A DNA stretch of 64,000 nucleotides from Candidatus Sysuiplasma jiujiangense (GCA_019721075.1 JAHEAD010000001.1:124001-188000); one strand, 5' to 3'. Positions 30,987-47,602 are shown, numbered from the stretch's first letter. Program-made: numbers and translations. The notes: generated by a model from the letters alone, not told the origin.

Positions 30987-32144
30987 TCAGATGTTAATGA
31001 CATCGCCCTTCCTCAGCACTTCAGCAACTTCCGGTCTGAGAATTTCAGACGGAAGCGGTTTCCCCTCTGAAAGTAGTTTTCTTATCCTTGTTTGACTCGT
31101 GTTCTCGTGAAATTCATCTCCATGAGGGCATACTTTTCTTGAAGCCATTCCATTGCAGACTTTGCAGTAGAATGTTTCCTCATACTTGAGCGGCACAATA
31201 CCAACGTCGAAATTGTCGAATATTCTATGCCCGGCGTAAGGGTCATAATAGCTGCCCACACCGGCCTGATCCCTGCCTACAATATAATGGGAACACCCAA
31301 AATTTCTTCTCACGATAGCATAGAAAAGAACCGCTTTTGGTCCTGCATACCGCATTGATATCGAAAGTGAAGCGAGCAGCACCCTGTCGCTCCGATAATA
31401 GTGAGAGACGAATACTTCATATGCCTCCATTATGACTTCTGGCCTGTAATCACCCTTCTTGAGCTTTCCTATTACCGGCTGTATGAAAAGTGCATCTATA
31501 TCATCCCTTTCAAGTGTTGCCCTCTGAATATATTCATGAGCGGTATGCGGCGGGTTCCTTGCCTGGTAACCAGCCACATTCCTCCAGCCATTCTTCTGAA
31601 AGAGCTCCCGGGTCTCAAGCGGCGTGTATTCAAATTTAGTATGCCGAGTCATTCTGATAAGCTGAACTTTTCCTGAGATGGCGATTTCACCCATCTGTGA
31701 CAGATCAGAAACGTTCGGATGAGCTTTGTCGGTCGTTCCATATATCTTCTTTGCAATCTCCTCCCGCGATATTGTGAATTTCTCCCCAACCCTGATAATA
31801 GCAAATGGAATTCCGGACGTATCCAGGATGGACAGCATATCCGATTCGCCCGCTTCTTTCAGGACAGCTTCATTGTCCTTTCCTGCGGGCGCCAGAAATA
31901 TGGGCATTGTCCAGGGCATTCCGTTCGAAAGCATGCTTCTGTCCAAGACGTTTTTGAAATCTTCCCTCCCCATAAAGCCTTCCAGGGGACTATAGGCTCC
32001 TGTACATATTTTTTCAGCATCATATATCTGGTCTATCAACGGTTTTATCGCCGGGATCTCGGATGCTTCCTCTCTCCGCCTAAGTAATTCGTTTTCGCCG
32101 GGAATGCCGTTGACAAGTTTTCCACCATAAGGGGACGGTATCAT
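30987..32144 (-). CDS. sat: Sulfate adenylyltransferase (ATP sulfurylase)
   Basis: Interconverts APS plus pyrophosphate with ATP plus sulfate. Nucleotide motifs GYQARNPPHTAHEYIQ and GRDQAGVGSYYDPY are present, together with the catalytic-loop RPEVIMEAYEV area and a zinc-type set near the C-terminus (YCKVCNGMASRKVCPHG). 385 aa, a normal homo-oligomeric dissimilatory-type length. It is last of the minus-strand unit with aprA, aprB and a membrane gene. With AprBA in the oxidative direction it would make ATP and sulfate from APS. Confidence 0.95.
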   Translation of the reverse strand: MIPSPYGGKLVNGIPGENELLRRREEASEIPAIKPLIDQIYDAEKICTGAYSPLEGFMGREDFKNVLDRSMLSNGMPWTMPIFLAPAGKDNEAVLKEAGESDMLSILDTSGIPFAIIRVGEKFTISREEIAKKIYGTTDKAHPNVSDLSQMGEIAISGKVQLIRMTRHTKFEYTPLETRELFQKNGWRNVAGYQARNPPHTAHEYIQRATLERDDIDALFIQPVIGKLKKGDYRPEVIMEAYEVFVSHYYRSDRVLLASLSISMRYAGPKAVLFYAIVRRNFGCSHYIVGRDQAGVGSYYDPYAGHRIFDNFDVGIVPLKYEETFYCKVCNGMASRKVCPHGDEFHENTSQTRIRKLLSEGKPLPSEILRPEVAEVLRKGDVINI

Positions 32145-32158
32145 TCAGCATCATCCCG

Positions 32159-34015
32159 TCAGGGCACAATGTGATGCACCGGTTTTGCAGACATCTCCCA
32201 CTGACGTGTCAATGGGTCATAGTGTGAATCAACGAAGACATGCCAGTTCTCATCGTCCACGTGCGGATAGTCTGCCCGGTAGTAATAGCCCGGCCATCTC
32301 GTTTCCTTTCTGTGAAGTGTGTGTCTTATCACCGCCTCAGCAACCCAGATTCTGTGGCTCAGCTCCCACGTTCTCTGCAGCTGGTGAAGATCCTCCGCTC
32401 CAATGCTCTTCATGTCCTCCTTAAGCATGAGAAGCAGGTTTAATCCCTTGTTAAGGAGTTTCTCATTTGTCGAGTAGTATGATCCAACACCCCCGCAGTA
32501 TTCGTCCATTATCTTCTCGAGTCGTTGAAGACCCTGCTTGGGTGTGATGAAGAAGGGGGAAACGCTTCCCTTCACAATTACATGCTTCCCCACTTCATAA
32601 TTTTCCAGTGGCTTGTACAACTCCTCCCTCAAAGCTTCTATCTGAGATAAATCGATTTGCGGCTTGTAATCAGCATGATCTCTCAGAAACCTTACTGCGG
32701 CCTTCGCTGCAAGACGACCTTCGGTGAAAGAGCCAGATGAGAACTTGTGGGCGCTGCCGCCGACAGTATCACCTGCTCCGAAGAGGCCCTCAACGGTCGT
32801 CATCCTGTTGTATCCCCAGTTATAATCCGATGGAGCCATGTCCTCCGGCCCGCTCACCCAGGCGCCTGCACAGACAGCATGCGATCCCATTACATACGGT
32901 TCAGACATGGTGAGTTCTGACGGATCCACCTTCGGGTCTATATTCTGAGAAGCCCACATTACAGCCTGGCCTATTGTCATGTCCAGAAAATCCTCCCAGC
33001 CAAGCTCTTCCTTTTCGCGCGTGTCGAGAGAGCGTTCAGTGTGTATGTAGATTGGACCCTTTCCTGCCTTTATCTCTTCAAGCATCAGGTGATTCCTCAG
33101 GCACGTCGGCATTGGTTTTGCATCTGCATACTTGGTTCCAACATATGTCCTCAGATTATCGATGTGCGCCTTCTCATACTCCTCACCATATGCATTTGTC
33201 GCGACTGATTTGAGCATGAGAAACCATGCCCCGACCGGACCATAACCGTCCTTGAAACGTGTGACCACAATTCTGTTTTCCATCTGTATCATGTCGGCCC
33301 CGACCTGCATCAGTAGGGCATATGCAGATCCATTGTTCCAGGGTGGATACCAAGTTCTTCCCGCTCCCTCTCCCACAGATCGCGGTCTGTATATGTGTGA
33401 GGCGCCTGCAGCACAGACTATGACAGCTTTCGCCCTGAATACGTAGAATGTGCCTTCCCTGACATCCAGACCCACCGCGCCGGCTATACGCCTGGGATTC
33501 CGCATATCTGTAAGCAGATGTGTGATCATTACCCTGTTGTACACTTCATCTACCGATTTTTGAGCTGCTTCTGCAATTATTGGCTTATATGATTCGCCAT
33601 GAATCATGATTTGCCACCTTCCTTCCCTCTGGTAGTGACCATTCTCCCTGTTGTACATCATGGGAAGGCCCCACTCCTCAAACATATGGACAGTAGCATC
33701 GACGTGCCTCGCTATATCGTACAGCAGATCCTCCCTCACGAGTCCCATCAGATCGCCTCTTGCATACCTGACAAAATCTTCAGGCATGTTTTCATTCCAT
33801 CTCATTCCCATATAGCAGTTAATAGCCGATAATCCGTGTGCCACTGCTCCACTTCTCTCAATATTTGCCTTTTCGACGATAACAATGCGAAGATCCCTAC
33901 CCCAGTATCCGGCCTCGTAGGCTGCCCCGCATCCTGCAAATCCTCCTCCCACTATCAATACGTCACAGTCAACGCGCTTTACAGATTTTGTCTTTCCAAT
34001 TGACAGAGATATCAT
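32159..34015 (-). CDS. aprA: Adenylylsulfate reductase alpha subunit (flavoprotein)
   Basis: FAD subunit that interconverts sulfite/AMP and APS. FAD motif VDCDVLIVGGGFAGCGAAYEA at the N-terminus; VEKANIERSGAVAHGLSAIN, REGRWQIMIHGESYKP, CLRNHLMLEE, MSEPYVMGSHAVCAGAWV, and GLFGAGDTVGGSAHKFSSGSF are AprA-like. 618 aa, the typical length. Separated from aprB by 9 nt. The gene alone does not tell oxidation from reduction; the sHdr genes nearby and the absence of dsrAB in this window favour oxidation. Confidence 0.94.
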   Translation of the reverse strand: MISLSIGKTKSVKRVDCDVLIVGGGFAGCGAAYEAGYWGRDLRIVIVEKANIERSGAVAHGLSAINCYMGMRWNENMPEDFVRYARGDLMGLVREDLLYDIARHVDATVHMFEEWGLPMMYNRENGHYQREGRWQIMIHGESYKPIIAEAAQKSVDEVYNRVMITHLLTDMRNPRRIAGAVGLDVREGTFYVFRAKAVIVCAAGASHIYRPRSVGEGAGRTWYPPWNNGSAYALLMQVGADMIQMENRIVVTRFKDGYGPVGAWFLMLKSVATNAYGEEYEKAHIDNLRTYVGTKYADAKPMPTCLRNHLMLEEIKAGKGPIYIHTERSLDTREKEELGWEDFLDMTIGQAVMWASQNIDPKVDPSELTMSEPYVMGSHAVCAGAWVSGPEDMAPSDYNWGYNRMTTVEGLFGAGDTVGGSAHKFSSGSFTEGRLAAKAAVRFLRDHADYKPQIDLSQIEALREELYKPLENYEVGKHVIVKGSVSPFFITPKQGLQRLEKIMDEYCGGVGSYYSTNEKLLNKGLNLLLMLKEDMKSIGAEDLHQLQRTWELSHRIWVAEAVIRHTLHRKETRWPGYYYRADYPHVDDENWHVFVDSHYDPLTRQWEMSAKPVHHIVP

Positions 34016-34024
34016 CTCCCGTTT

Positions 34025-34492: not shown

Positions 34493-34508
34493 TCTGATTC
34501 ACGACTCC

Positions 34509-35294
34509 TCAATCTTCTTTTATGAAACTCACTTTAGAAGGCGATGGCAAATGAGAATATCCATCGGCAGAATCAATTTCCCTGTGTATTGCATAAACCG
34601 GTTTGTAGATGATATGAAGGAACTTTGACCATCCCATTGAGAGGAAGGGAAAAGCAGTGACAGGCAGATAAAATATAAGCGCTATTTCTGTCGCCACAAG
34701 CGAACCGCTAAGATCGGCAAATTCCAGTATGAATTGGAAAACCACGGCAAGCATGATTGAAAAAAGGAACATGTCAGCACGAATAGAGCGGAAAATGGAG
34801 TCCTTCTCTGATCTGACATTCACGCGCATAAAAAGCATCAGAATTCCGCCAAGGAGCAGCATAGTGTTACCTGTGTTTGTAGCAATTTCAAGCGGATTCG
34901 AGATTGGAGACGCATTGAGTGTCGGGTAAACGAACGCCTTGGAAAGCATCGATAGAGCCGATACAATGAATCCCCAGAACAGAAGCAGATGAGCGATACG
35001 TCTCGGTATGTCAACTCCTTTTTCATTGCATGAAGCAATTTCACCGGAAAAGGCGATATTTCTGAGAAGGACCCGCATTATTACCGAGGAGTGGGATACA
35101 TGCTTACCTCCAGAAACCCTTCCAAAACTCCTTTTCCAGGCCCTCTCCTGTTCATATGCCCTGATTTTTTTCCGCACGAGGGCGTCATACATAACACCGA
35201 GGATGGCTCCTAAAACCAGAATCAGTACAAACAACCGAAAGTAGTCCGATGGGAAAAACACATCTATGTTTACAGCGGCCATTCTATGAACCAT
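34509..35294 (-). CDS. Membrane electron-transfer subunit, QmoC/HdrE/NarI-like
   Basis: 261 aa with about five membrane segments (residues ~20-40, 92-113, 133-155, 174-195, 206-228). The helix following PRRIAHLLLFWGFIVS carries a His in the position of a heme b ligand in the NarI/HdrE/QmoC family, and SKFLHIIYKPVYAIHRE carries further His residues. No iron-sulfur domain is fused, so it matches only the membrane part of QmoC. By position it should couple AprBA to the quinone pool. It is distinct in family from the AprM protein of some sulfur bacteria as far as I can judge. First gene of this unit. Confidence 0.75.
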   Translation of the reverse strand: MVHRMAAVNIDVFFPSDYFRLFVLILVLGAILGVMYDALVRKKIRAYEQERAWKRSFGRVSGGKHVSHSSVIMRVLLRNIAFSGEIASCNEKGVDIPRRIAHLLLFWGFIVSALSMLSKAFVYPTLNASPISNPLEIATNTGNTMLLLGGILMLFMRVNVRSEKDSIFRSIRADMFLFSIMLAVVFQFILEFADLSGSLVATEIALIFYLPVTAFPFLSMGWSKFLHIIYKPVYAIHREIDSADGYSHLPSPSKVSFIKED

Positions 35295-35317
35295 TCAGGG
35301 CAATGAATTTTCTTTAC

Positions 35318-35330
35318 TTATACTTATTCG
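35318..35330 (-). promoter_or_regulatory. TATA-like box for the apr-sat unit
   Basis: On the minus strand AAGTATAAGTAAAG lies about 30 nt upstream of the ATG at 35294, giving a nearly leaderless transcript. The palindrome at 35348-35360 sits immediately upstream. Confidence 0.4.
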
Positions 35331-35347
35331 ATAACGACTGATTTCGA

Positions 35348-35524: not shown

Positions 35525-36031
35525 ATGAACAGCAGGAAAAAAGACGAGAAAGATGCGAACGGTGGCCTAGGACTTGATTTGCTGGATGTCGGAATTATCA
35601 AGGAATTGCAGAAGAATTCCCGAACATCCTACAGGCAGATTGCCAGAAATTTCGGCGTCAGTGTGACGACAGTGAGCGAAAGAGTAAACAGGATGGTTAA
35701 GGAGGGCCTGATAAGAAGCTTTACCGTCATTGTTAACCCTGAGAAATCTGGACCAATTTTCTGCGCAGCACTTTACATCAAAGCAAGTAACGGATGTGAC
35801 CCGAGAGAGGTTGGCAGGAATGTTTCAAAGATAAAGGGGATTTGTTACACTTATCAGGCGCTCGGATTGTACGACATAATAGCTCTTGGCAGCGCCATCA
35901 GCAAGAAGGATTTTTCCACAATGATTAGGGATGTCACATCAGTTGATGGAATAAAAGAAGTCATACCGTCGATGGTCATAGACACAATAAAGGAAGAGCC
36001 CCGTCACCCGATAAGCATACCCGGAAAATAG
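35525..36031 (+). CDS. Lrp/AsnC family transcriptional regulator
   Basis: 168 aa. Winged helix-turn-helix LLDVGIIKELQKNSRTSYRQIARNFGVSVTTVSERVNRMVKEGLI (residues ~20-65), then an RAM/ACT-like ligand domain from ~75 (VIVNPEKSGPIFCAALYIKA...). Divergent from the apr-sat unit with 230 nt between them that contain a 13-bp palindrome, so it may control that unit and perhaps the other sulfur promoters. A TATA-like AATATTTATGAAT lies near 35447-35459. Confidence 0.88.
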   Translation: MNSRKKDEKDANGGLGLDLLDVGIIKELQKNSRTSYRQIARNFGVSVTTVSERVNRMVKEGLIRSFTVIVNPEKSGPIFCAALYIKASNGCDPREVGRNVSKIKGICYTYQALGLYDIIALGSAISKKDFSTMIRDVTSVDGIKEVIPSMVIDTIKEEPRHPISIPGK

Positions 36032-36060: not shown

Positions 36061-36558
36061 TCAGAATGTCGTGTTCTTTGAAGCTCTCGCAATTATCCTT
36101 TTTGACATTTCGGCCATCTCTTCACACATGCGTCTGTACGCCTGATCGTCTACCGTTGTCATCTCACCCATGTCACTGCCGATCAACGCATACTCGGAAA
36201 AGGTGTAAATGGTCGAGTCCGGATAAAGGAACAAAAGGAAACCTTTTACTGCCATGCTCGTTGCAAGAAGCAACTCGAATTGCCGCACGATGCTGTCTGA
36301 AAGTTTTCGGCTCCTGAACTCATGAATTTCTTCCTTGTTGAAGGCTCTATCCGCAAGAAAAGAGGAAGCCCGCAAGCTCATGGGTTGTCCCTCGACTGCG
36401 GAGAGACCTGCTGATGACACGATCATATCCCTTTCACCTGCTTCCTTCTTAAGCAAATATTCCATGATCGGGCTCGCATCAGCATTTGCACTGCCTACAA
36501 CCAGAATTCGTTTAACAGGTTTGCCAAAAACAAGCCTTCTGATTATGTTTTCAGACAA
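36061..36558 (-). CDS. Low-molecular-weight phosphatase-like protein lacking the catalytic cysteine
   Basis: 165 aa. The fold of LMW protein-tyrosine phosphatase / arsenate reductase is suggested by strand-loop-helix VKRILVVGSANADASPIMEYLLK, then MIVSSAGLSA...SLRASSFL, and a C-terminal helix. The P-loop that should read CxGNxxRSP reads GSANADASP: the nucleophile Cys and the Arg are both replaced, so phosphatase activity is unlikely. Last gene of a minus-strand unit with the 94-aa gene and dsrE2. A binding or regulatory role is possible. Confidence 0.6.
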   Translation of the reverse strand: MSENIIRRLVFGKPVKRILVVGSANADASPIMEYLLKKEAGERDMIVSSAGLSAVEGQPMSLRASSFLADRAFNKEEIHEFRSRKLSDSIVRQFELLLATSMAVKGFLLFLYPDSTIYTFSEYALIGSDMGEMTTVDDQAYRRMCEEMAEMSKRIIARASKNTTF

Positions 36559-36560
36559 GT

Positions 36561-36845
36561 TTATTCCTTGACTGGTATTTCGAAATCGATTCTTTCAATT
36601 ATGTCTTCCTTTCGGATTGGCAAAATGTTCCTATAGGCAGGAAACATGTCTGAGCTGAAGCGTTCCGCTATAGCACCGTTATCTTCCTTGGCCGCCTGTT
36701 CACCTATGAGTAGAACATCATCATCTTCCCTGACGACTACTCCACCTGCCCTGAAAACAGCACGGTAAACCGTTGCATCCGCTCCTCTTCCGCCATGAGG
36801 AGAAAAAGGTTTAGGATCCGAATACTTCACGTAAACGATTTTCAC
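36561..36845 (-). CDS. Uncharacterised 94-aa protein in the sulfur island
   Basis: Begins MKIVYVKYSDPKPFSPHGG and continues with beta-strand-like segments (VYRAVFRAGGVVVREDDDVLLIGEQAA), ending IERIDFEIPVKE. Soluble, no Cys. Its stop lies 2 nt before the next start on the minus strand, and dsrE2 ends 30 nt upstream of it, so it is probably co-transcribed with dsrE2. I do not recognise a family. Confidence 0.65.
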   Translation of the reverse strand: MKIVYVKYSDPKPFSPHGGRGADATVYRAVFRAGGVVVREDDDVLLIGEQAAKEDNGAIAERFSSDMFPAYRNILPIRKEDIIERIDFEIPVKE

Positions 36846-36875: not shown

Positions 36876-37316
36876 TCAGATGAAGAGAGTTATTGCAGAA
36901 GGATCGGAAGCCCATTGAAGAAATGTGGCCGCTCCGACAACGTCTGCACCAGGCAGTGTGAGATTCTCCTTCGTTGTTCCAAAAAGCTTCATGGTTGGCG
37001 AACATGCATTTATGTGAACACCTGATTCGGCCGCCATCTGAAGCATCTGTTGCACGGATGGCATTCCGCCTTTCGATATCAGTCCCTTCAGCTGTTCAGC
37101 ATTTAGTCCGAGGTCCTTTGAAGGTTCAAGTGCATCCGCCTGACCCTTGGTCAGAAGTTTCATTCCTCCAAAGGTGAAGTACATGTATACTTCCATTCCC
37201 TGGGCCGCCGCAGTCGTGGCCAGTATCAAGGCCGGATATGCGGCATCCATGGTGCCTTTGCTCACAACTAGTACTAGCTTGTTCTTTGATTCAGATTTCT
37301 CTACCGCGTTTTGCAT
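36876..37316 (-). CDS. dsrE2: DsrE2-type sulfur carrier protein
   Basis: 146 aa. DsrE/DsrF-like alpha/beta protein: LVLVVSKGTMDAAYPALILATTAAAQGMEVYMYFTFGGMKLL opens the DsrE2 fold, and the conserved reactive Cys is in VHINACSPTMKLFG. DsrE-type proteins pass sulfane sulfur, often in a pair with TusA; a tusA gene starts 133 nt away on the other strand. Heads a minus-strand unit with the two following small genes. Confidence 0.85.
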   Translation of the reverse strand: MQNAVEKSESKNKLVLVVSKGTMDAAYPALILATTAAAQGMEVYMYFTFGGMKLLTKGQADALEPSKDLGLNAEQLKGLISKGGMPSVQQMLQMAAESGVHINACSPTMKLFGTTKENLTLPGADVVGAATFLQWASDPSAITLFI

Positions 37317-37449: not shown

Positions 37450-37683
37450 ATGTCATCTGAAGCGAAAGTTTTTGATTTCAGGGGACTGCAGTGCCCCCTC
37501 CCCGTGTTTGAGACAAGCAAGGCTATCAAACAGATAAATGTCGGAGAAACGATTCTTGTTATGGCAAACGACCCGGCCGCAAAACCTGATCTGCAGGCAT
37601 GGTCGAAGAGAACGGGACATGAGATCGTGAATCTTGAGGAAAAAGAGGATTTTGTGAGCTTTACAATTAAGAGATCGCACTGA
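37450..37683 (+). CDS. tusA: TusA sulfur-transfer protein
   Basis: 77 aa. The signature GLQCPLPVF places the sulfur-carrying Cys at residue 15 in a CPxP motif, followed by helix ETSKAIKQI and the C-terminal strand pair, a complete SirA/TusA fold. In sulfur oxidisers TusA hands sulfane sulfur to the DsrE proteins and to the sHdr system. It is a single-gene unit between the divergent dsrE2 and the downstream sHdr operon, with a stem-loop about 50 nt after its stop. Confidence 0.93.
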   Translation: MSSEAKVFDFRGLQCPLPVFETSKAIKQINVGETILVMANDPAAKPDLQAWSKRTGHEIVNLEEKEDFVSFTIKRSH

Positions 37684-37924: not shown

Positions 37925-38704
37925 ATGTCAATCCTCAAAAATTTGCCAAAGAGAGAGGATTCGCAATCGCCATCTATGATTATTTCAGGAGCAAGGGGAC
38001 ATGGCAAACAGTCTGATGAAACAGCCAAAAGGATTTTCGCTGAAATGCGCAGTGATTTTAGATACAAAGATTTTGTTTTAGGCTGCCTTAACTGCGGTGA
38101 ATGCACTACAGGCTGTCCGGCAGCCAGATTTTACGATTTCAGCCCAAGAGAAATGCTTCAGGTGGCGATGTCTGAAGATCCCGACGTTCTGCTTGACGCC
38201 ATGCAGGAAAAAATATGGGCCTGCTGCCAGTGTTATACATGCAACATGAGATGCAGATTCGGAAATGATATAGCGGGAATAATAAGCGTAATGAGAGAAC
38301 TTGCAGTGAAAAATGGCCTTGAAAGCGCAAAGGAAGTCCTGAAACCCGCAAGCAGGAGTCTCCTCAAAGTTATGACACATGGAACCCAAGTGTCGCCGGA
38401 CATGATACAACCAGATTTCTTTATTGACTGGGATCCAAAGGCTGTATCGAAATCTGGTGATCTTCAACTGCTCCGAAAAGCGATACCGATAGATGTTCTT
38501 CAGGTAACTGACTCGTCGTGGGAGGTTTCCATGCAAACTGCACTCGAGCTTGCCCAGATTTATGAAGAGTCTGGAGTGCTCGATATGCTCAGGTCCCTTG
38601 ATCCCGACCTTGTGGAAATGATTGTTGATATAATTTCAGACTGGAAAGATGAATTCGAAGATATGAAAGAAAAATTCGGCATGAAGAGCGATGATGGAAA
38701 ATGA
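37925..38704 (+). CDS. shdrC1: Sulfur-oxidising heterodisulfide reductase-like subunit C1
   Basis: 259 aa iron-sulfur protein of the sHdr complex. Two [4Fe-4S] motifs: Cys 54, 57, 60, 64 (CLNCGECTTGCP) and Cys 100-110 (CCQCYTCNMRC). HdrC relays electrons between HdrA and HdrB. AAGGAGAATGACTG before the ATG is a good ribosome site. First gene of the shdrC1-B1-A-hyp-C2-B2 order known from sulfur-oxidising bacteria and Sulfolobales. The C-terminal ~130 residues are a family-typical helical extension ending in an acidic/basic helix. Confidence 0.9.
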   Translation: MSILKNLPKREDSQSPSMIISGARGHGKQSDETAKRIFAEMRSDFRYKDFVLGCLNCGECTTGCPAARFYDFSPREMLQVAMSEDPDVLLDAMQEKIWACCQCYTCNMRCRFGNDIAGIISVMRELAVKNGLESAKEVLKPASRSLLKVMTHGTQVSPDMIQPDFFIDWDPKAVSKSGDLQLLRKAIPIDVLQVTDSSWEVSMQTALELAQIYEESGVLDMLRSLDPDLVEMIVDIISDWKDEFEDMKEKFGMKSDDGK

Positions 38705-39990
38705 AGATGCTAAGTGCGGATCAGATAAGAGAAGTGGTTAAGGCCAGAACTGAAAACAGAGCTGTTTCTGATAAGAAGGTAGCCGACGTAAGGGAAGAAA
38801 TGTGGAACCTGCACGATAAAGGGGAGCTTATTGTAATACCAATCGAAAGTAAAAATAAGCCTATCCCGGTTCAGACATTATTTGGCTGGGAGAAAAAGAT
38901 TCCGACTGATTACCTCTGGCACCATAAATCATGCGGGCAATGCGGCAACATACCTGGTTATCCCGCATCCCTCCTTTGGTTCATGAATGAATTTGGAACA
39001 CACTATCTGAATGAACCGCATCAGACATCTTGTACTGCATGGAACTATCACGGCACAGGTACATCGAACCCGGTAGCTCTGGCAGCTGTCGCTGTGAGAA
39101 ACTGGTACAGGGCATATGAAACTGGTACATTCCCTCTCATACACTGCGGTACAAGCTACGGTGATTACAAGGAAATGAGGAAACTCCTCGTTGAGAACAA
39201 GGAAACAAGGGAAAAGGTAAGAGACATAATGCATCACATGGGAAAGGAACTCGTGATACCCGAAGAAATAGTGCATTACAGTGAGTGGGTGCATGTTATG
39301 CGGGACAGGATGGCATCCATGAAAAAGTATAATCTGTCAGACATAATTGCAACCGTCCATGAACCCTGCCATTATTACAAAATGGTTCCAGAGGATGCCA
39401 TTTACGATTTCGGTGTCAACGGGGGACAGCGGCCTGCACCTCCAACGGCGCTCATGCTTGCACTCGGCGCAAAAGTTGCGGATTACAGCACATGGTATGA
39501 CTGCTGCGGTTTCGGATTCCGGCATATTCTGACAGAGAGGGAGTTTACAAGATCATTTGCCACGCTGCGGAAAATTAAACCGATGGTGGAAGAGGCTCAT
39601 TCTGATGTTGCAATCACCACCGATACCGGCTGCGTGACAACACTGGACAAGAGCCAGTGGATAGGCAAGGTTCATGGAATGGATTTCATGGTGCCGGTAC
39701 TCGCCGACGTCCAGATTGCTGCGCTGGCAGCCGGAGCCCACCCATATAAGATCGTTCAGGTACACTGGCATGCGTCCCCAACCGAGAAGCTGATGGAGAA
39801 AATGGGAATAGACTACACCTCGTACAAAAACGATTTCATGGCTTACCTGGAGCAGATTAAGGGCGGAGGGAAGATCGAGTATCTTTACGAACCTCACAGA
39901 GAAATGGAAAAATATTTCGCAGTCAACAAAGGCCAGGTTCTTCCCGAAGATGTTCCCCGGCCCGAAGAGGCAAAAATCAGACAGGGTTAG
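38701..39990 (+). CDS. shdrB1: Sulfur-oxidising heterodisulfide reductase-like subunit B1
   Basis: 429 aa with two CCG-type domains. Cys-containing loops include KSCGQCGNIPGYP (residues ~80-92), HQTSCTAW, EPCHYYK, YDCCGFGFRH and TDTGCVTTLDKSQW; these would bind the non-cubane or related clusters at the catalytic site of HdrB. It overlaps shdrC1 by 4 nt (ATGA). It is clearly longer than the second B subunit in the same operon (304 aa). Confidence 0.9.
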   Translation: MKMLSADQIREVVKARTENRAVSDKKVADVREEMWNLHDKGELIVIPIESKNKPIPVQTLFGWEKKIPTDYLWHHKSCGQCGNIPGYPASLLWFMNEFGTHYLNEPHQTSCTAWNYHGTGTSNPVALAAVAVRNWYRAYETGTFPLIHCGTSYGDYKEMRKLLVENKETREKVRDIMHHMGKELVIPEEIVHYSEWVHVMRDRMASMKKYNLSDIIATVHEPCHYYKMVPEDAIYDFGVNGGQRPAPPTALMLALGAKVADYSTWYDCCGFGFRHILTEREFTRSFATLRKIKPMVEEAHSDVAITTDTGCVTTLDKSQWIGKVHGMDFMVPVLADVQIAALAAGAHPYKIVQVHWHASPTEKLMEKMGIDYTSYKNDFMAYLEQIKGGGKIEYLYEPHREMEKYFAVNKGQVLPEDVPRPEEAKIRQG

Positions 39991-39998
39991 GTGATATT

Positions 39999-41081
39999 CT
40001 GACCGCAGCACGCATACTTGTCATAGGAGGAGGACCAGCGGGACTGAGTGCGTCGATGGATCTTTTCGGTGCGGGAGCTGAGGTGGTTCTGGTGGAAAAG
40101 GAATCTTTTCTTGGCGGGACCCCAAAGCGCCTTCACTACAGCCTGATAGCACCGGATCTCAAACCTGTGGAGGAAGTACTCGACCCTTTGATAAAAGAGG
40201 TAAAGTCCTCAGGGATAAGGACGAAACTCGGCACAATTGTTTCATCCATCAGGAATCATGATAAGAGTGTACAGGCAACATTCAAATCAATCTCTGACGG
40301 AAAGGAGGAAAAAGACGCTTTTGACGCGGTCGTGCTGGCCACCGGATTCTCGCACTGGGATCCGCATAAGAAGTACGAATACGGCTACGGCCTCTATCCA
40401 GATGTCATTGACTTCAAGGATTTTGAACAGATGCTTTCGGAGGACCGCCTCATCAGACCATCCAATGGTCAGATGCCTAAACGGATAGGGTGGCTTCTCT
40501 GCGTAGGTTCGCGGGACAGGCAGGTTGGAAAATTCTACTGCTGCAGGCTTGGCTGCGCAGTATCGATAAAACAGGCAATGGAGGTGAAGAAGAAGCATCC
40601 GGAAATTGACACTTACATCTATTACATGGACATTAGGACATATGGCTTTTGGGAAGACCAGCTGTACTGGAAATCCATGGAGGAAATGAATGTCAAATAC
40701 ATACGCGGACGTATAGGGGCCATCAGCAAGGGAGAAGACGGCAGTCTTATTGCAATGGCCGAAGATACAATTCTACAGAGACCCAGTGAAGTTCCGTTCG
40801 ACATGCTTGTGCTTGCCACAGGAATGGAGGCAAGCGAGGGAACTGTCGAAATGGCCAAAATGCTTGGACTGGAAATGGAAGAGCATGGCTTTGTTAGGCC
40901 GCTTCAGGCAGACAGCCTTCCCGTGCATACTACAGTTGAAAACGTGTTTGTAGCCGGCACAGCTACGGGCCCAAAAGCGATACCCGATGCCATAACAGAG
41001 GGCTCGGCAGCCGCGATAAAGGTACTCAATTACGTGAGGAAGAGGTCGATAAAAACAAATGCCAGAGCTTATGCTGAATAG
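39999..41081 (+). CDS. shdrA: Sulfur-oxidising heterodisulfide reductase-like subunit A, non-canonical start
   Basis: FAD flavoprotein that would bifurcate or relay electrons in the sHdr complex. Dinucleotide motif ARILVIGGGPAGLSASMD, VVLVEKESFLGGTP, LATGFSHWDP, the [4Fe-4S]-type segment FYCCRLGCAVS, VLATGMEAS and VFVAGTATGPKAIPDAI. About 360 aa. The first in-frame ATG (40056) is after GGGPAG, so it cannot be the start; the CTG at 39999 follows AGGTGA by 4 nt and is the best available start. A one-base shift would allow the GTG at 39991 instead. Overlaps the next gene by 23 nt. Confidence 0.88.
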   Translation: MTAARILVIGGGPAGLSASMDLFGAGAEVVLVEKESFLGGTPKRLHYSLIAPDLKPVEEVLDPLIKEVKSSGIRTKLGTIVSSIRNHDKSVQATFKSISDGKEEKDAFDAVVLATGFSHWDPHKKYEYGYGLYPDVIDFKDFEQMLSEDRLIRPSNGQMPKRIGWLLCVGSRDRQVGKFYCCRLGCAVSIKQAMEVKKKHPEIDTYIYYMDIRTYGFWEDQLYWKSMEEMNVKYIRGRIGAISKGEDGSLIAMAEDTILQRPSEVPFDMLVLATGMEASEGTVEMAKMLGLEMEEHGFVRPLQADSLPVHTTVENVFVAGTATGPKAIPDAITEGSAAAIKVLNYVRKRSIKTNARAYAE

Positions 41082-41769
41082 TTACCGCATGCGTGAAATT
41101 GCGGATGCGACAATAGGACATGAATGGGAGGCGGAGCTCAGAGCTTACGTTGAACTTCTCAGGCGTAAATCCGAAATTGTCACTTCAATGACACGGGAAA
41201 GAGACAGGAGTGAAGAATTCAGGAAAGACTTCATAAGAATGTGTTTCACATCGAGGAGGTATGCTGACTCCATTCTCTCACACAACACGCCTGGTGGGAT
41301 TGATATGGCCATTGAGTCCCTCGCGTCGGCAGACGATGAACCGGAGGCATGCATTGCCATATTTGCCGGCCTGCATGGTGCACCTGCTGAAGTGATAAGA
41401 GATCTTGCCTTTGAAATGATTCACTTTTCATTTCCGGAAAAATACGGACTGGCGACAAGATGGGTCTGGAATCCTGCACGAGGCACTGGTGCTCTTAGGG
41501 AGGCAATAATGGCCGATAGGATGGAAATGAATTTCACCCAGATACAGAAAGTAATGAGAAACATATACTCGTCTCTCATTGTTCATGGATACAGATTTCA
41601 TGATTTTTTTCCACTTGACCTCATAAGCGCTCTCCATTATTCACAGGATGTCATAGGAGCAAAGGACAACTCAATGAACGCTGGTGGAATGGAGGCTCTT
41701 TTCCCGAACCATGGAGTGATTTCGATAATGATACTCGGACTGAAGGAGATACGTTATGCCAATCCATGA
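41059..41769 (+). CDS. Conserved sHdr-cluster protein of unknown function (hyp)
   Basis: 236 aa, soluble and helical, only two or three Cys, no motif I recognise. In other organisms with this cluster a protein of unknown function sits exactly between shdrA and shdrC2, and this gene occupies that place. Overlaps shdrA by 23 nt and shdrC2 by 14 nt, so it is translated with them. Its constant position suggests a structural or assembly role in the complex; this is inference. Confidence 0.8.
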   Translation: MPELMLNSYRMREIADATIGHEWEAELRAYVELLRRKSEIVTSMTRERDRSEEFRKDFIRMCFTSRRYADSILSHNTPGGIDMAIESLASADDEPEACIAIFAGLHGAPAEVIRDLAFEMIHFSFPEKYGLATRWVWNPARGTGALREAIMADRMEMNFTQIQKVMRNIYSSLIVHGYRFHDFFPLDLISALHYSQDVIGAKDNSMNAGGMEALFPNHGVISIMILGLKEIRYANP

Positions 41770-42463
41770 GAAGCACTTGATTGCAAAAGAAAAAATACTG
41801 CAGAAGGACAGGGCAGAACTTGAAGGGAGGGATGTTTCAGGACAGTGGAACATTTTCATACAGCAGAGAATCCTGTCACAATATGAGCCGTCCATTGCAG
41901 AGGATATTGCATCGACGCATGAAGGGAGAACCATCAACAGATGCTGGCAATGCGGTACTTGCACATCCGGTTGCTGTATGCATACTGATTTCGGCCTTCG
42001 GGAGTTCAATCCCCGATACTTCATTTATCTTGCAAGGATTGGGGATGAGGAAGAACTGAAGAAACAGAAGGATGTTATCTGGCGCTGCCTATCATGCAAC
42101 AAGTGCGTTGAAAGATGCCCGAAGGATGTGAGGGTTGAAGAGGTCATACATGCCATTGACGGGTACATGAGGAAGAAGGGATGGATGACTGATACTCCCG
42201 CAAGCAGGTGGGACAGGGAGTATGTCAACAATGTCCTGGAGACTGGAATACTTGATGAAATAATGCTCCTCAGGAACTATATCAAGAAGGAGGAACTGAA
42301 GGAATTTGACTCCGGCTACATGATGAGGATGGGGATGCGCCTTGCCAGAACTGGTAGACTGAGAACCGGTCCCGTCAGGCACAGGACAAAAGGCTGGAAG
42401 AAGATCAAAAAAGTCGCTGAAGAAATACTGGAAAAGGATGGATATGAACTACCAAAAAGGTGA
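41756..42463 (+). CDS. shdrC2: Sulfur-oxidising heterodisulfide reductase-like subunit C2
   Basis: 235 aa. Two [4Fe-4S] motifs: CWQCGTCTSGCCMH (residues ~63-76) and CLSCNKCVERCPKDV (~106-120). Starts inside the hyp gene and ends inside shdrB2. Paralogue of shdrC1 with a Cys-rich first motif (CTSGCC). Expected to work with shdrB2 as the second C-B module. Confidence 0.9.
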   Translation: MPIHEKHLIAKEKILQKDRAELEGRDVSGQWNIFIQQRILSQYEPSIAEDIASTHEGRTINRCWQCGTCTSGCCMHTDFGLREFNPRYFIYLARIGDEEELKKQKDVIWRCLSCNKCVERCPKDVRVEEVIHAIDGYMRKKGWMTDTPASRWDREYVNNVLETGILDEIMLLRNYIKKEELKEFDSGYMMRMGMRLARTGRLRTGPVRHRTKGWKKIKKVAEEILEKDGYELPKR

Positions 42464-43355
42464 TATTGCTTTTTACCCTGGCTGTTCGCTAGACGGACTC
42501 GGAAAAGCTTACAGGAAGAGCTCGGAGCTTGTAACAAAGGATCTGGGCATTCAGATGGAAGAGATTGTGAACTATAACTGCTGTGGAGCGGCGGAAGTCA
42601 AGACCGTGAGCTACGATCTGTCCGTTTTTCTCCCCGGAAGAAATCTCGCACTTGCAAAAGAAATGGGTTCAAAGACAGTCGTTGCGCCTTGCAATGGATG
42701 TGTCTTTTCTCTGGGAAGAGCAAATAAAGCGATAGCTGAAGACACCGCGACCAAAGAAAGGGTTAACGAATATCTTGAAAGGGCCGGTGCACCATCATAT
42801 AATGGTGAAGTGGAGGTAAAGCACATAATAGAAGTCATATACCAGCAGGCCGGACTCGATACAATCCGCAACATGGTCAGGAGACCACTGAAAGGCATAA
42901 AAGTTGCCTGTTACTACGGTTGCCTGTACACCAGGCCAAAGATTTACACAGGAGCTGGTTCCTGGGATAAAGACAACCCGGAACACCCCCACTTCATGGA
43001 CGACATCATGGAAGCAATAGGGGCAGAAGTGGTCGACTACCCTCTGAAAACGGTATGCTGCGGTGGCGGCCATGCAATAGCCGATCGTGAGGTATCTGTT
43101 GGCTTCAGCGCTTCAATACTTAATGAAGCGGCAAGAGCAGGGGCTGATTTTGTAGTAACAATGTGTCCTCTGGGGCAGATGAATATCGAGGCAAACATAC
43201 CAATGATTGTAAAGCAATATGGTCAGCAGATAGTGAGGCCGGTCGTTTATTTCACTCAGCTAATGGCGCTTGCATTCGGCCACAGCCGGAGAGATGTGCG
43301 ACTTGGAGACAATTTTTCCGATGGTGGAAAGATTTTACGCCAGAAGGGATTCTAG
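42444..43355 (+). CDS. shdrB2: Sulfur-oxidising heterodisulfide reductase-like subunit B2
   Basis: About 303 aa. Starts with FYPGCSLDGLGKAYR; two CCG domains are present: NYNCCGAAEVK with APCNGCVF, and CYYGCLYTRPK with TVCCGGGHAIADRE and TMCPLGQM. These are the complete canonical HdrB cysteine sets, unlike the more divergent shdrB1. Start ATG 42444 (an in-frame ATG at 42438 is also possible); it overlaps shdrC2 by 20 nt. Confidence 0.9.
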   Translation: MNYQKGDIAFYPGCSLDGLGKAYRKSSELVTKDLGIQMEEIVNYNCCGAAEVKTVSYDLSVFLPGRNLALAKEMGSKTVVAPCNGCVFSLGRANKAIAEDTATKERVNEYLERAGAPSYNGEVEVKHIIEVIYQQAGLDTIRNMVRRPLKGIKVACYYGCLYTRPKIYTGAGSWDKDNPEHPHFMDDIMEAIGAEVVDYPLKTVCCGGGHAIADREVSVGFSASILNEAARAGADFVVTMCPLGQMNIEANIPMIVKQYGQQIVRPVVYFTQLMALAFGHSRRDVRLGDNFSDGGKILRQKGF

Positions 43356-43370
43356 TCAAGGGAGGTAGGA

Positions 43371-43823
43371 ATGATGACGTTCATAAATGGATGTGAACTG
43401 CCCGACAACCTGCTCTACTTTGTGGAAGGAAACCAGATGTCGTGGATAAGACTGGAAGAAGATGAGGCTGTCATAGGACTGACGGATCCCGCCCAGACAA
43501 GGGCCGGAAAGATAGTTGTTATCAGGGTGAAGGGGGAGGGCACAAGCAGACCAAAGGGAAAGCCACTGGCAACAATTGAAAGCGGAAAGTGGGCAGGTGC
43601 TGTTCTGTCACCGTTAACAGGCGTAGTCGTGAAACCCAATGAGGAACTCACCGCCCATCCTGAACTGATTAACAACGATCCTTACGGTAAAGGATGGATT
43701 GTCAGGGTGAAAATGATCAATCGGGAGGAAAGCAGTTCTCTCCTCCGGGGTGAACAGGCCATGGAAAAATACAGAGAACTGATAGGCAGGGACAACATAC
43801 GCTGCATCAGATGCCAGCAGTGA
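43371..43823 (+). CDS. lbpA: Lipoate-binding protein of the sHdr pathway (LbpA, GcvH-like)
   Basis: 150 aa, GcvH-type lipoyl domain. The modified lysine is K73 in IESGKWAGAVLSP, matching the lipoyl hairpin of LbpA. The N-terminus has GLTDPAQ and AGKIVVIRV as in GcvH, and the C-terminal CIRCQQ contains two Cys. The lipoyl arm carries sulfur intermediates to sHdr in other organisms. It lies 15 nt after shdrB2, behind GGGAGGTAGGA, and the lipoate ligase gene is two genes downstream. No glycine cleavage genes are near, so a GcvH role is unlikely. Confidence 0.92.
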   Translation: MMTFINGCELPDNLLYFVEGNQMSWIRLEEDEAVIGLTDPAQTRAGKIVVIRVKGEGTSRPKGKPLATIESGKWAGAVLSPLTGVVVKPNEELTAHPELINNDPYGKGWIVRVKMINREESSSLLRGEQAMEKYRELIGRDNIRCIRCQQ

Positions 43824-43833
43824 GGTGGCAAAT

Positions 43834-44211
43834 ATGGTTGAAGTTGAAGGAAAGAAGTTGCTTATTGTGATGACAACAGGCCCGGAAGATCCTGAGAAGA
43901 CATATGCCCCATTCTATACAGCAGCACTCTCTGCTGCGATGGAGGTGGATACATCAATGTACTTCCTCATGCACGCGCCAAAGCTTCTGAAAAATGGCTC
44001 CGCGGAACAGGTCAGACTGAAGAAAGGCGGAACACTGAAGCAGTTCATTAACATGGCGCTGGAGGGAGGAGTGAAATTCTATGCCTGCGAGGAAAGCTTG
44101 CGCGATCTTTGCGACATAGATCCGAAGGATGTAATAGAAGGGGTTAAAGTTGTCGGCTCCTCCACACTGGCTGATCTTGCACTTGACTCAGATTCGGTTC
44201 TAAGTTTTTGA
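43834..44211 (+). CDS. DsrE-family protein
   Basis: About 125 aa. The fold is that of DsrE/peroxiredoxin-like small proteins: LLIVMTTGPEDPEKTYAPFYTAALSAAM, MYFLMHAPKLL, and a single conserved Cys in VKFYACEES. Start at ATG 43834 with GAGGTGG upstream. Placed between lbpA and the lipoate ligase, it probably carries sulfane sulfur to or from LbpA/sHdr. Confidence 0.85.
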   Translation: MVEVEGKKLLIVMTTGPEDPEKTYAPFYTAALSAAMEVDTSMYFLMHAPKLLKNGSAEQVRLKKGGTLKQFINMALEGGVKFYACEESLRDLCDIDPKDVIEGVKVVGSSTLADLALDSDSVLSF

Positions 44212-44218
44212 GGTGAAG

Positions 44219-45340
44219 ATGACGGACCTTGAGATAATAAATCTCGGTCCCGTAGACGGTTATGTAATGACAAACGTGTTTGTTGCTCTTTCGTACGCAG
44301 TCAGCGAGGAAAGGCGCAATGATGTGCTTGTCTTATGCCACCCTGAAAAGCCATTTGCGAACGTAGGGTTCCATCAGGAGACGCTCAGGGAGATTGACAT
44401 TGACTATTGCACAAGACATTCCATACCCGTTGTCAGAAGGGTTATCGGAGGGGGGGCGATAGCAGACGGACCATGGGAGGAAGATTACTTCCTAATAAGC
44501 AGGATCGGTTCTAAGTCGACACGGGGAACGTTAAAGGAATATTACGGCAGGATGCTTGAACCAGTTTCATCCGCATTGCACAGACTGGGGCTGAACGCAA
44601 CCAGACAGGGGCTGAACGACCTTGCAGTGGATGGCAGAAAGATTAGCGCAAACGGGGCTGTGGACATAGAAGGGGCAAGGGTTCTTACAGGCGATATTCT
44701 TCTAGACCTGAACATCGACATCATGGCAGGCATACTGAAGGTCCCGGAAGAAAAATTCAGGGATAAAATAGCAAAAACGATGATGGAGCATCTAACGGGA
44801 ATCAGACAGACTCTTGGACGGGAAATCGAACGGGGAGAAATTGACAAACTGCTTGCAGAGGAGTTTGGAAGACTCTACGACGGCGTGAAAAGTTCTGATA
44901 TAACAGAACATGAGAAAAAGCGTCTTGACCTGTTGGTAGAGGAAAGGAAAAGACAGGAGTGGATTTTCTCTCGGGACAGTGATAGGAGCGAGCTATTTGC
45001 AGATCGCAGGATAGTCAAGATCAATGAGGGTACTTTTCTTTGCAAGGCAGACTACAAAGCACAGAAGCTGATACGAGTTACAATGCTTGTTGAGTCAGGG
45101 AGGATTAAAAATATAGCCATTTCGGGGGACTTTTTTACCGTGCCCGTAAGCTGGAAGCTGGAAAGACTTGAAAGACGCCTTGAGGGAACTCCTCTGAATC
45201 ATGAAGATATCAAATCCATTGTTGACACTTTGATTTCTCAGGATGGCGTAACAGTGCTCGGCGCGGAGCCAGAAGATTTCGCATCTGCAATAATGGATGC
45301 CGCCAGGCATCCGGAAATTTCGAATGAAAACAGAGGCTGA
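44219..45340 (+). CDS. Lipoate-protein ligase (sLpl-like), probable LbpA modifier
   Basis: About 373 aa. Catalytic half: biotin/lipoate ligase fold with VVRRVIGGGAI (RRxxGGG motif) and the substrate Lys in GRKISANGAV. A C-terminal accessory domain with VTMLVESGRIKNIAISGDFF resembles LplB/Lpl accessory domains, so both parts are in one chain. Its position beside lbpA makes LbpA the likely acceptor. Start ATG 44219 follows GAGGTGA. The radical-SAM partners LipS1/LipS2 and LipT known from some bacterial sHdr clusters are not in this window. Confidence 0.88.
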   Translation: MTDLEIINLGPVDGYVMTNVFVALSYAVSEERRNDVLVLCHPEKPFANVGFHQETLREIDIDYCTRHSIPVVRRVIGGGAIADGPWEEDYFLISRIGSKSTRGTLKEYYGRMLEPVSSALHRLGLNATRQGLNDLAVDGRKISANGAVDIEGARVLTGDILLDLNIDIMAGILKVPEEKFRDKIAKTMMEHLTGIRQTLGREIERGEIDKLLAEEFGRLYDGVKSSDITEHEKKRLDLLVEERKRQEWIFSRDSDRSELFADRRIVKINEGTFLCKADYKAQKLIRVTMLVESGRIKNIAISGDFFTVPVSWKLERLERRLEGTPLNHEDIKSIVDTLISQDGVTVLGAEPEDFASAIMDAARHPEISNENRG

Positions 45341-46427
45341 AAGTTTGAAAAGCGAACTGAGGGAAATTCTGTCGACAGTTCCGCATCCTGAAAGGCGTTC
45401 CTCCCTGATAGAGCTGGGTATGATATCTTCGATTAATGCAGAAGGAAAAAGAGTCAGGGTCGTTGCCTCCATACCTGAAGGATACCAACTGGCAGACATC
45501 ATAAAATCAGACATAGAAACGGTGTTGAAGGATGCTGGATACGACTGCGCAGTTGAATTCACAATCAAAGGGAAGACCGTGCCGGATGAAAGGAAGTCAA
45601 GGAAACTTCCCATAATTGTCACAGGAACCAGAGAAAGAACAGGCATAGACGCACTTCCACGGAACGACATAGGAAATATCATCGCCGTGGCATCCGGCAA
45701 GGGAGGAGTGGGAAAGAGCTTTATTACGACCGCGATAGCGACGCATCTTACCTCACTGGGATACAGGACAGGCATACTGGACGCAGACATCACTGGTCCG
45801 TGTATTTCTCGAATGCTTGGACTGAGGGACCTTCCTGAACTCGGGGAAAATAACAGAATGAAGCCGCTGGTGTCAAGAATGGGCATCAGGGTGATGTCCA
45901 TTGACCTGATAATGGACAAATTCAAAACACCACTGGTGTGGAGAGGACCTCTGATAAACAGCGCGATCAGAGGGTTGTTTTCGGAAACTGAATGGGGTGA
46001 TTTACACTACCTGCTGGTAGATCTGCCTCCCGGCACATCAGATGCACCGCTGACTGTATTCCAGTCGTTGACTCCGGATGGCGTGCTTTTCGTCACCAGT
46101 CCGATGGAAGTTGCGAGATCCGTAGTTGCCCGTTCAATAGCCATGGCGAGTGAGATGCATGTACCTGTTATAGGAGTGGTTGAGAATATGGCATTTCTCA
46201 GGCTTCCAGACGGTTCGCGCATAAATGTATTTGGAAGAGAGGAAGGCAAAAAAGTTGCTGAGGAGTTTGGTGTTCCATACATTGGATCTGTTCAGCTCGA
46301 TCCTGCCGTTAGCGCGCTGTCAGATCGTGGGGAGATTGAACTTTACAGCAACAGTCAATTCTTCAGGATAATCAGGAATTTGAGATTCAGCCTTCTGCGC
46401 ATTTCACCGGACACAAGAAGGGGATGA
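45324..46427 (+). CDS. Mrp/NBP35-family P-loop ATPase with N-terminal DUF59 domain
   Basis: About 367 aa. Residues 1-~85 resemble the MIP18/DUF59 domain; the P-loop follows at AVASGKGGVGKSFITTA, then LDADITGPCI and LLVDLPPGTSDAP (Walker B region). Mrp proteins help to assemble or carry iron-sulfur clusters. The family's usual Cys-x-x-Cys after ENM is absent: here ENMAFLRLPDGSRINVFG has no Cys. Start at ATG 45324 inside the ligase end. In this operon it may load clusters onto sHdr or act by another mechanism. Confidence 0.88.
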   Translation: MKTEAESLKSELREILSTVPHPERRSSLIELGMISSINAEGKRVRVVASIPEGYQLADIIKSDIETVLKDAGYDCAVEFTIKGKTVPDERKSRKLPIIVTGTRERTGIDALPRNDIGNIIAVASGKGGVGKSFITTAIATHLTSLGYRTGILDADITGPCISRMLGLRDLPELGENNRMKPLVSRMGIRVMSIDLIMDKFKTPLVWRGPLINSAIRGLFSETEWGDLHYLLVDLPPGTSDAPLTVFQSLTPDGVLFVTSPMEVARSVVARSIAMASEMHVPVIGVVENMAFLRLPDGSRINVFGREEGKKVAEEFGVPYIGSVQLDPAVSALSDRGEIELYSNSQFFRIIRNLRFSLLRISPDTRRG

Positions 46428-46430
46428 CTA

Positions 46431-46634
46431 ATGCCCAGAATACGCGTTATATCCAGAATCGGGAATCCATTCTTTTCCGGGGTAACAGGAAAGACCGCAA
46501 AGACTGTGCCGCCGGAACATCTTGAGATTCTAAACAGTCTCTTCTTTGAAGGTGAAGTGGATAAAGGAGGCACTGTGGAAATCGACGGGCGGAGATATGT
46601 GTGCACCTCGTACGGATGGGCATGTGAGGAATAA
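46431..46634 (+). CDS. 67-aa protein of the sHdr operon, unknown function
   Basis: Starts MPRIRVISRIGNPFFSGVTGKTAKTV; the second half (VEIDGRRYVCTSYGWACEE) has two Cys near the C-terminus. Small and slightly basic, without a membrane segment. Begins 3 nt after the Mrp-like gene and ends 1 nt before the next DsrE-type gene, so it is surely co-transcribed. No family recognised. Confidence 0.7.
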   Translation: MPRIRVISRIGNPFFSGVTGKTAKTVPPEHLEILNSLFFEGEVDKGGTVEIDGRRYVCTSYGWACEE

Positions 46635-46635
46635 T

Positions 46636-46986
46636 ATGGAGTCACAGTTCCTTATAATTCTTTTTTCATCTCCAGTGCAGCACAGGGAAGCTGAATCGGC
46701 AAGGGACAGGGCACAGTCACTCATGGCGGCAGGCAAAAAGGTGTCAATATTCCTTCTGGGAGATGGTGTTTACAATGCTTCTGAAGAGCTAATTCAGCCT
46801 GGCAATCCGGGTGTTGTTTCATCTTTTGCTCAGATGGAAGAGGCAGACATTGTTTGCTGTTCGACATGTTTGGCTATGAGGGGAGTGAACAGGCTCATTG
46901 GAACGGCGAGGAAAGGGAGCCTGGAAGATCTTGTGGATAAAATGGAAAAGGCGGATATCATACTGAATTACACGGCGGAGGAATGA
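46636..46986 (+). CDS. dsrE: DsrE/TusD-like sulfur-transfer protein
   Basis: 116 aa. Strand-helix opening QFLIILFSSPVQHREAESA, then KVSIFLLGDGVYNA, and the Cys-rich loop IVCCSTCLAMRGVNRL, where DsrE/TusD keep their reactive Cys. First of a three-gene dsrE-dsrF-dsrH-like block. Start ATG 46636 after AGGAATAAT; the longer frame upstream overlaps the 67-aa gene. The three together would form a DsrEFH-type hexamer that receives sulfur from TusA. Confidence 0.8.
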   Translation: MESQFLIILFSSPVQHREAESARDRAQSLMAAGKKVSIFLLGDGVYNASEELIQPGNPGVVSSFAQMEEADIVCCSTCLAMRGVNRLIGTARKGSLEDLVDKMEKADIILNYTAEE

Positions 46987-47318
46987 TGAGAGTTACTGTT
47001 TTGCTGACACGACCTCCCCTATCCACCGCACACGTGACGGAGGCATTGCGCGTCTCCTTAATGCTCGCTGCTCTAGGGCACGACGTATCTCTGGTTCTAA
47101 TTGACGATGGAGTATTCATGCTTCTGGAAAATATGGGAGCCTCATTCGGGCTCGAAACACTGAAAAGGGCGGATGGTGCTGACGGCCTTCATCTGTGTGT
47201 TCACGGTGATTCCGTCAGAAAATTACTGCCTGATATGAAAATACCAGCAACTTACAGCATGCTTGAGACCAGAGACATTGCATCAATGATTCTCTCAGAG
47301 AAAGTGCTGGTGTTCTGA
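46983..47318 (+). CDS. dsrF: DsrF/TusC-like protein
   Basis: 111 aa. Begins MRVTVLLTRPPLSTAHVTEALRV, with VSLVLIDDGVFMLL, the family's second strand and helix. One Cys (LHLCVHG). Overlaps dsrE by 4 nt (ATGATGAG) and the next gene by 1 nt. Assigned by fold pattern, size and place between dsrE- and dsrH-like genes. Confidence 0.72.
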   Translation: MMRVTVLLTRPPLSTAHVTEALRVSLMLAALGHDVSLVLIDDGVFMLLENMGASFGLETLKRADGADGLHLCVHGDSVRKLLPDMKIPATYSMLETRDIASMILSEKVLVF

Positions 47319-47602
47319 TGCAGGTGCTAATCCACATGCACAGAAGAATTCAAATGAAATCCGGAATTATAGAGGTGGTATCCGAAATCTGCAGGAGAAC
47401 GGAAACAACAATTGTCCTCGGGGGCGCTGCAGTATTTTCCGCCGGTAATTTGCAGCATACGCTCAATTCCTGTCGGGCACAGTATAGATTGTGTGTGGAG
47501 AATGTGGCCGAAAGCCATCCGCTCCCAGCTGATGTTGAGCGTTTGAGCACTGATGAAGTGACAAAGCTTATTGCTGTGACAGAGCGGGTAATACTGTTCT
47601 GA
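47318..47602 (+). CDS. dsrH: DsrH/TusB-like protein
   Basis: 94 aa. Pattern of TusB/DsrH: short N-terminal strand, TIVLGGAAVFSAGN, two Cys at NSCRAQYRLCVEN, and a C-terminal strand ending VILF. Overlaps dsrF. Last gene of the 37.9-47.6 kb operon; 43 nt then precede the PEP carboxylase start. Confidence 0.65.
   Translation: MQVLIHMHRRIQMKSGIIEVVSEICRRTETTIVLGGAAVFSAGNLQHTLNSCRAQYRLCVENVAESHPLPADVERLSTDEVTKLIAVTERVILF

Follow-up and report, generated by a model that had tools for sequence, protein, structure and literature searches.

Most of what is known about sulfur oxidation by the heterodisulfide reductase-like complex sHdr comes from bacteria and Sulfolobales. Here we describe an sHdr locus in a 64,000-nucleotide stretch of Candidatus Sysuiplasma jiujiangense (JAHEAD010000001.1:124001-188000; henceforth the window), an uncultured acid-mine archaeon, where it forms a 16.6-kb island (positions 30987-47602) together with genes for ATP sulfurylase (Sat) and dissimilatory adenosine 5'-phosphosulfate (APS) reductase (AprBA). 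Among the closest described systems, Hdr-like sulfur oxidation in Hyphomicrobium requires the lipoate-binding protein LbpA, and the type I sHdr-LbpA locus of Hyphomicrobium denitrificans has the order shdrC1-B1-A-hyp-C2-B2 followed by lbpA, with DsrE, TusA and lipoate ligase genes (PMC6067878). The Sulfolobales counterpart is hdrC1B1A-hyp-hdrC2B2 with dsrE3A-dsrE2B-tusA (PMC8551704, PMC4175335); a 2024 paper stated that no archaea other than the Sulfolobaceae are known to oxidise elemental sulfur, and called the fate of sulfite in them unknown (PMC11323534). AprBA itself occurs with QmoABC in sulfate reducers and in lineage II of sulfur-oxidising bacteria (SOB), and as AprBA-AprM in SOB lineage I (PMC2211403).

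The island very probably encodes cytoplasmic oxidation of sulfur to sulfate of the sHdr-LbpA type I kind. A complete sulfur-to-sulfate route within 17 kb had been proposed in a first-pass annotation made from the sequence alone, and it is supported by gene content, synteny, the presence of aprA in every one of the 24 sHdr genomes that a search of 300 Thermoplasmata genomes turned up and the absence of dsrA, with an oxidative direction that we infer. Open reading frames (ORFs) and family scans placed the genes of both modules where they had been annotated (Table 1), i.e., the canonical sHdr order followed by lbpA, along with DsrE, lipoate ligase, Mrp, TusA and DsrE2. As in the Sulfolobales, archaeal sHdr is thus accompanied by DsrE3, DsrE2 and TusA. 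Of the dsrE-F-H-like genes that were named, the first two matched their family, whereas dsrH can be recognised by its position only.

We compared the subunits with methanogen heterodisulfide reductases, since grouping with the latter would have spoken against the assignment. sHdrA is short, with only the FAD (flavin adenine dinucleotide) domain, and resembles Hyphomicrobium sHdrA more than methanogen HdrA; sHdrB1 has an Acidithiobacillus homologue at 56.5% identity; and the subunits match Hdr families far below the methanogen cut-offs (e.g., sHdrB2 scores 184 bits against HdrB TIGR03288, with a cut-off of 345). The shdrA gene starts at about 39987 with TTG, some 70 bases upstream of the first ATG, and overlaps shdrB1. 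LbpA, a GcvH-like protein that appears distinct from GcvH by its score below the equivalog cut-off, retains the expected lipoylatable lysine, and the ligase gene within the island may contribute to dedicated lipoylation; LipS1/S2 are found in most, not all, sHdr genomes (PMC10332631). Unlike in H. denitrificans, the host belongs to the Thermoplasmatota, the ligase carries a C-terminal domain, the genes for Mrp, a 67-aa protein (o67) and DsrEF(H)-like proteins follow, and aprBA-sat is close by; dissimilatory AprBA-Sat beside sHdr also sets the island apart from the Sulfolobaceae. The island combines known kinds of enzyme in an arrangement of a known kind, as a variant with linked AprBA-Sat, a loop-less AprB with a QmoC-like partner, and two small conserved proteins.

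The annotated sat-aprA-aprB genes all scored above their curated cut-offs. Specifically, AprA, whose best relative in the PDB is Archaeoglobus fulgidus 2FJA, conserves N74, W234, R265, R317 and H398 (Arg265 and His398 are named as active-site residues in PMC2211403), i.e., the catalytic residues of sulfate reducers and SOB lineage II. Sat adjoins AprBA as in a relative from family f26. Unlike those two groups, the island has an AprA from a separate clade and only the membrane half of a QmoC-like protein adjoining; no QmoA/B was found among the island genes, the part of the genome covered. The AprB loop C13-G19, which correlates with QmoABC (PMC2211403), is missing, in our alignment, from the AprB of the window and of the other Thermoplasmata, and present in the bacterial AprB of the set; the f26 AprB has it, and its gene adjoins genes read as QmoA/B. 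Absence of the loop and a membrane-protein gene before aprBA recall SOB lineage I, but the island's membrane gene matches QmoC, in a comparison that included no lineage I AprA/AprM sequences.

An AprB without the QmoABC-docking loop fits a stand-alone QmoC-like partner. The first-pass annotation had named a QmoC-like membrane gene; its match covers only the membrane half of QmoC (positions 145-356), and the Fe-S part is absent. The protein has about 4-5 hydrophobic segments and two histidines conserved in homologues, its gene adjoins aprB in the f1 and FK5 lineages, and it probably passes electrons from AprBA to quinone. The host genome also has a COX1 terminal oxidase gene. Separately, a two-repeat membrane protein at L229:418-1512, by eye DoxX/DoxD-like with no Pfam/NCBIfam match, sits on contig C12 with a COX1 gene on either side.

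The island is real and conserved. The order phosphoesterase-sat-apr-sHdr-ppc, in which the phosphoesterase gene (30135) and ppc are the outer genes, recurs in three more genomes of the genus, in one of them as far as its shorter contig extends, and the block stays close, partly rearranged, in a sister genus (apr-sat and sHdr within 20 kb) and two further lineages. In the FK5.bin12/YP4.bin50 lineage, qmoC-like-aprB-aprA-sat follows dsrEF, while in family f9 (17 sHdr genomes sampled) many genomes have aprBA or sat near sHdr in other orders; in Sysuiplasma, the sister genus, FK5/YP4.bin50 and many f9 genomes, apr and/or sat are found no more than 20 kb from sHdr. Synteny within the genus and proximity kept in other lineages indicate more than chance, and varied orders with kept proximity point to function rather than frozen inheritance. 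Close sHdrB2 orthologues occurred in 24, AprA in 42 and o67 in 25 of the 300 genomes; as these genomes are related, Fisher values are descriptive only. In f9 islands (L037-L051) we also observed another LbpA-like gene (29-44% identical to the window LbpA) along with another lipoate ligase, adjoining sHdr but on the opposite strand.

The predicted Thermoplasmatota-like host was confirmed by a genus-level match to Ca. Sysuiplasma superficiale (Ca. Sysuiplasmataceae in NCBI ranks). The window lies on a 332-kb contig of a 2.29-Mb genome that is 97% complete, and given this contig and the synteny in four species a binning error is unlikely. The order Ca. Sysuiplasmatales was reportedly described by Yuan et al. 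in 2021 (doi 10.1128/aem.01065-21, cited in PMC12220078), who are said to have already proposed sulfur oxidation there.

We propose that sulfane sulfur would be passed via DsrE2, DsrE3 and TusA, perhaps also DsrEFH, to the sHdr complex, which together with lipoylated LbpA would oxidise it to sulfite. AprBA could then convert sulfite and AMP to APS, delivering electrons through the QmoC-like protein to the quinone pool, and Sat would form sulfate and ATP from APS and pyrophosphate. The lipoate ligase and the Mrp ATPase may serve to mature LbpA and the Fe-S subunits.

A sulfate-reducing role would be suggested by a reductive dsrAB system or by an AprA from within the sulfate reducers. No dsrA above cut-off was found in 8 genomes of the host family; a 36-bit match in the host genome was rejected as a NirA-like protein. 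The same search found neighbouring dsrA and dsrB genes elsewhere in the Thermoplasmata (G213, G095, G160, G151, G251, G217, G147, G041 and G121), with E-values down to 1e-94 yet under the curated cut-off, so the Dsr of these families is presumably divergent. Several such families have dsrAB together with apr (G147, G095, G121, G213; L211-L214), and G095 also has QmoA/B/C-like genes.

In the AprA tree, built without references from SOB lineage I, gammaproteobacteria and Caldivirga/Pyrobaculum, most Thermoplasmata sequences grouped in a single clade that excluded bacterial sulfate reducers, Chlorobi and Archaeoglobus; the exceptions were the f26 sequence, which grouped with Archaeoglobus, and a long-branched sequence (G043) standing alone. 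Constraining Sysuiplasma AprA to the bacterial group was 18.8 log units worse (approximately unbiased test, p = 0.08), meaning that such a placement is disfavoured, not strictly rejected, among the bacteria and Archaeoglobus sampled. Within the Thermoplasmata clade, Dsr-linked AprA (support 98-99) separated from sHdr-linked AprA (94 in the full tree, 98 when thinned), although the AprA of one sHdr genome, G265, fell in the Dsr-linked group. Comparison of sHdrB1 likewise split Sysuiplasma and FK5 from f9, in agreement with AprA. One f9 genome, G160 (contig C12, 1-60000; L208-L210), has dsrAB, the sHdr genes and two copies of aprBA all in a region of some 45 kb, with one AprA in each of the two clades.

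Several observations weigh against an oxidative route. AprBA is thought to be bidirectional, and sequence does not fix its direction (PMC2211403); DoxD was not found in the host genome; no QmoC-like gene adjoins aprB in the f9 islands, so that the f9 electron partner must differ or sit elsewhere; and six f9 genomes (L215, L216, L219-L222) have sHdr-type AprA but lack both dsrA and an sHdrB2 orthologue, meaning that this type of AprA does not depend on sHdr for its occurrence. The host genome also has a 604-aa NirA/sulfite-reductase-like gene that could use sulfite reductively. Together with the six f9 genomes, this gene is what favours a reverse pathway in which AprBA-Sat turn sulfate into sulfite, the NirA-like enzyme reduces sulfite for assimilation and the sHdr genes do something separate. 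However, the gene lies on another contig than the island and scores far under all sulfite-reductase cut-offs, AprBA is of the dissimilatory type, and aprA accompanies sHdr throughout, closely linked in several lineages; we regard such a pathway as improbable.

Marginally less credible still is that sHdr only clears surplus sulfane sulfur and its sulfite is exported, with AprBA-Sat handling sulfite that arises elsewhere, e.g., from organosulfonates. Export has been proposed for the Sulfolobaceae (PMC11323534), and some relatives have AprA without sHdr, but this sits poorly with two modules that lie near each other in several lineages and with the occurrence of aprA in 24 of 24 sHdr genomes. Returning to the sulfur-to-sulfate route, we offer only tentatively, at somewhat less than even chances, a more specific form of it, in which an AprBA branch that evolved in the Thermoplasmata would be dedicated to sulfite made by sHdr, a stand-alone QmoC-like protein would replace QmoABC, and o67 and a 94-aa protein (o94) would act in sulfur transfer or complex assembly.

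The 67-aa protein and a 94-aa protein were among the three candidate parts singled out at first; the third, hyp, is an already known, unnamed sHdr gene. Two ORFs of 94 aa need to be distinguished: the conserved o94 (36561-36845) and the protein at the dsrH position (47318-47602). Neither o67 nor o94 had relatives in Pfam or NCBIfam, and searches with their AlphaFold2 models (predicted local distance difference test scores of 82 and 84, respectively) gave no solved-fold match at E <= 0.001; weak Sm/Hfq-like matches of o94 were not taken as evidence. o67 has 13 invariant positions, one of them its sole invariant cysteine, and a DsrC-like role (cysteine near the C-terminus) was dropped because the second cysteine in the window's o67 is not conserved; o94 contains no cysteine. 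We detected o67 in 23 of the 24 sHdr genomes and in two further genomes (G151 and G292), from whose assemblies sHdr may be missing. That every sHdr genome has o67 was rejected, as the loci of G265 and of FK5/YP4.bin50 lack it; o94 is present in FK5. Among 31 chosen genomes, o94 was found in 7, all carriers of sHdr or o67, and in none with only Dsr or only AprA. Both proteins accompany sHdr, and neither was detected in the Dsr-type relatives examined.

With sHdr kept beside AprBA-Sat in a second archaeal phylum, it becomes possible to test for a complete pathway to sulfate that forms ATP at the substrate level, and the stable pairing in several related archaea offers a testable answer to where sulfite goes. 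Dsr-linked and sHdr-linked AprA, found together in one genome, offer a built-in comparison for studying enzyme direction; o67 and o94 are defined genes to target. The route also bears on which organisms acidify mine drainage.

Table 1. Genes of the sulfur oxidation island, with positions in the window
Gene and product	Position	Strand	Evidence
sat, ATP sulfurylase	30987..32144	-	PF01747; PRK04149 423.7 bits, TIGR00339 326.2 bits, both above cut-off
aprA, dissimilatory APS reductase alpha	32159..34015	-	TIGR02061 960.9 bits (cut-off 641.75); 2FJA; active-site residues
aprB, APS reductase beta, without C13-G19 loop	34025..34492	-	TIGR02060 178.4 bits (cut-off 135.65); alignment
QmoC-like membrane protein, membrane half only	34509..35294	-	NF038018 qmoC 145-356, 50 bits (cut-off 300)
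Lrp/AsnC-type regulator, possible island regulator	35525..36031	+	HTH_24, HTH_AsnC; relatives adjoin sHdr in most f9 islands
Low-molecular-weight phosphatase-like protein (weak)	36061..36558	-	PF01451 24.1 bits (cut-off 23.2)
o94, conserved protein, adjoins dsrE2/tusA	36561..36845	-	No Pfam/NCBIfam match; model A3
dsrE2-like sulfurtransferase	36876..37316	-	PF13686 95 bits; NF047629 77.6 bits, below cut-off
tusA, sulfur carrier, CPLP motif	37450..37683	+	PF01206 76 bits
shdrC1	37925..38704	+	HdrC-type 4Fe-4S protein, below HdrC equivalog cut-offs
shdrB1	38701..39990	+	CCG domain; 56.5% to Acidithiobacillus ferrooxidans Hdr-related protein
shdrA, single FAD domain, without extra HdrA parts	39987..41081	+	6TJR (sHdrA-type flavoprotein, best solved relative, nearly full length) 264 bits; methanogen HdrA 200 bits
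shdr hyp, conserved unnamed gene between A and C2	41059..41769	+	Homologues at same place in sHdr loci
shdrC2	41756..42463	+	Fer4 matches; HdrC below cut-off
shdrB2, two CCG domains	42438..43355	+	PF02754 x2; orthologues 57-86% identical in other Thermoplasmata
lbpA, lipoate-binding protein, Lys in ESGKW	43371..43823	+	PF01597; TIGR00527 gcvH 83 bits, below cut-off 115.85
dsrE3-like sulfurtransferase	43825..44211	+	PF02635 58.6 bits
Lipoate-protein ligase, catalytic and C-terminal domains	44213..45340	+	PF21948, PF10437
Mrp/ApbC-type (Mrp/NUBPL) Fe-S carrier ATPase	45297..46427	+	PF10609 257 bits, PF01883
o67, conserved protein, one invariant Cys (YxCTxxGW)	46431..46634	+	Model A2
dsrE/tusD-like, start approximate, directly after o67	46636..46986	+	PF02635 52.3 bits
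dsrF/tusC-like	46983..47318	+	PF02635 37 bits; TIGR03010 33.3 bits, below cut-off
dsrH-position protein, 94 aa	47318..47602	+	Placement only; no family match

Viral contigs held no relatives of sHdrB1 or AprA. On plasmids, the relatives of sHdrB1 were a lone Acidithiobacillus homologue and a weak cyanobacterial one, with no full bacterial sHdr cluster among the matches to serve as a reference; AprA matched two records. The former homologue, on plasmid p1 of Acidithiobacillus ferrooxidans (L228:12539-16242), lies near a GcvH-annotated gene and hemerythrin-domain genes, without the remaining sHdr cluster. A full-length AprA (53.8% identical) is found at 19872-21725 of NZ_CP061967.1, an unannotated 21.8-kb Klebsiella pneumoniae plasmid record, where contamination or mislabelling is more likely than a Klebsiella gene. 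Rfam gave no match within the window, and at 61557-62706 we noted transposase-like ORFs (by eye IS66-like), apparently split into two frames.

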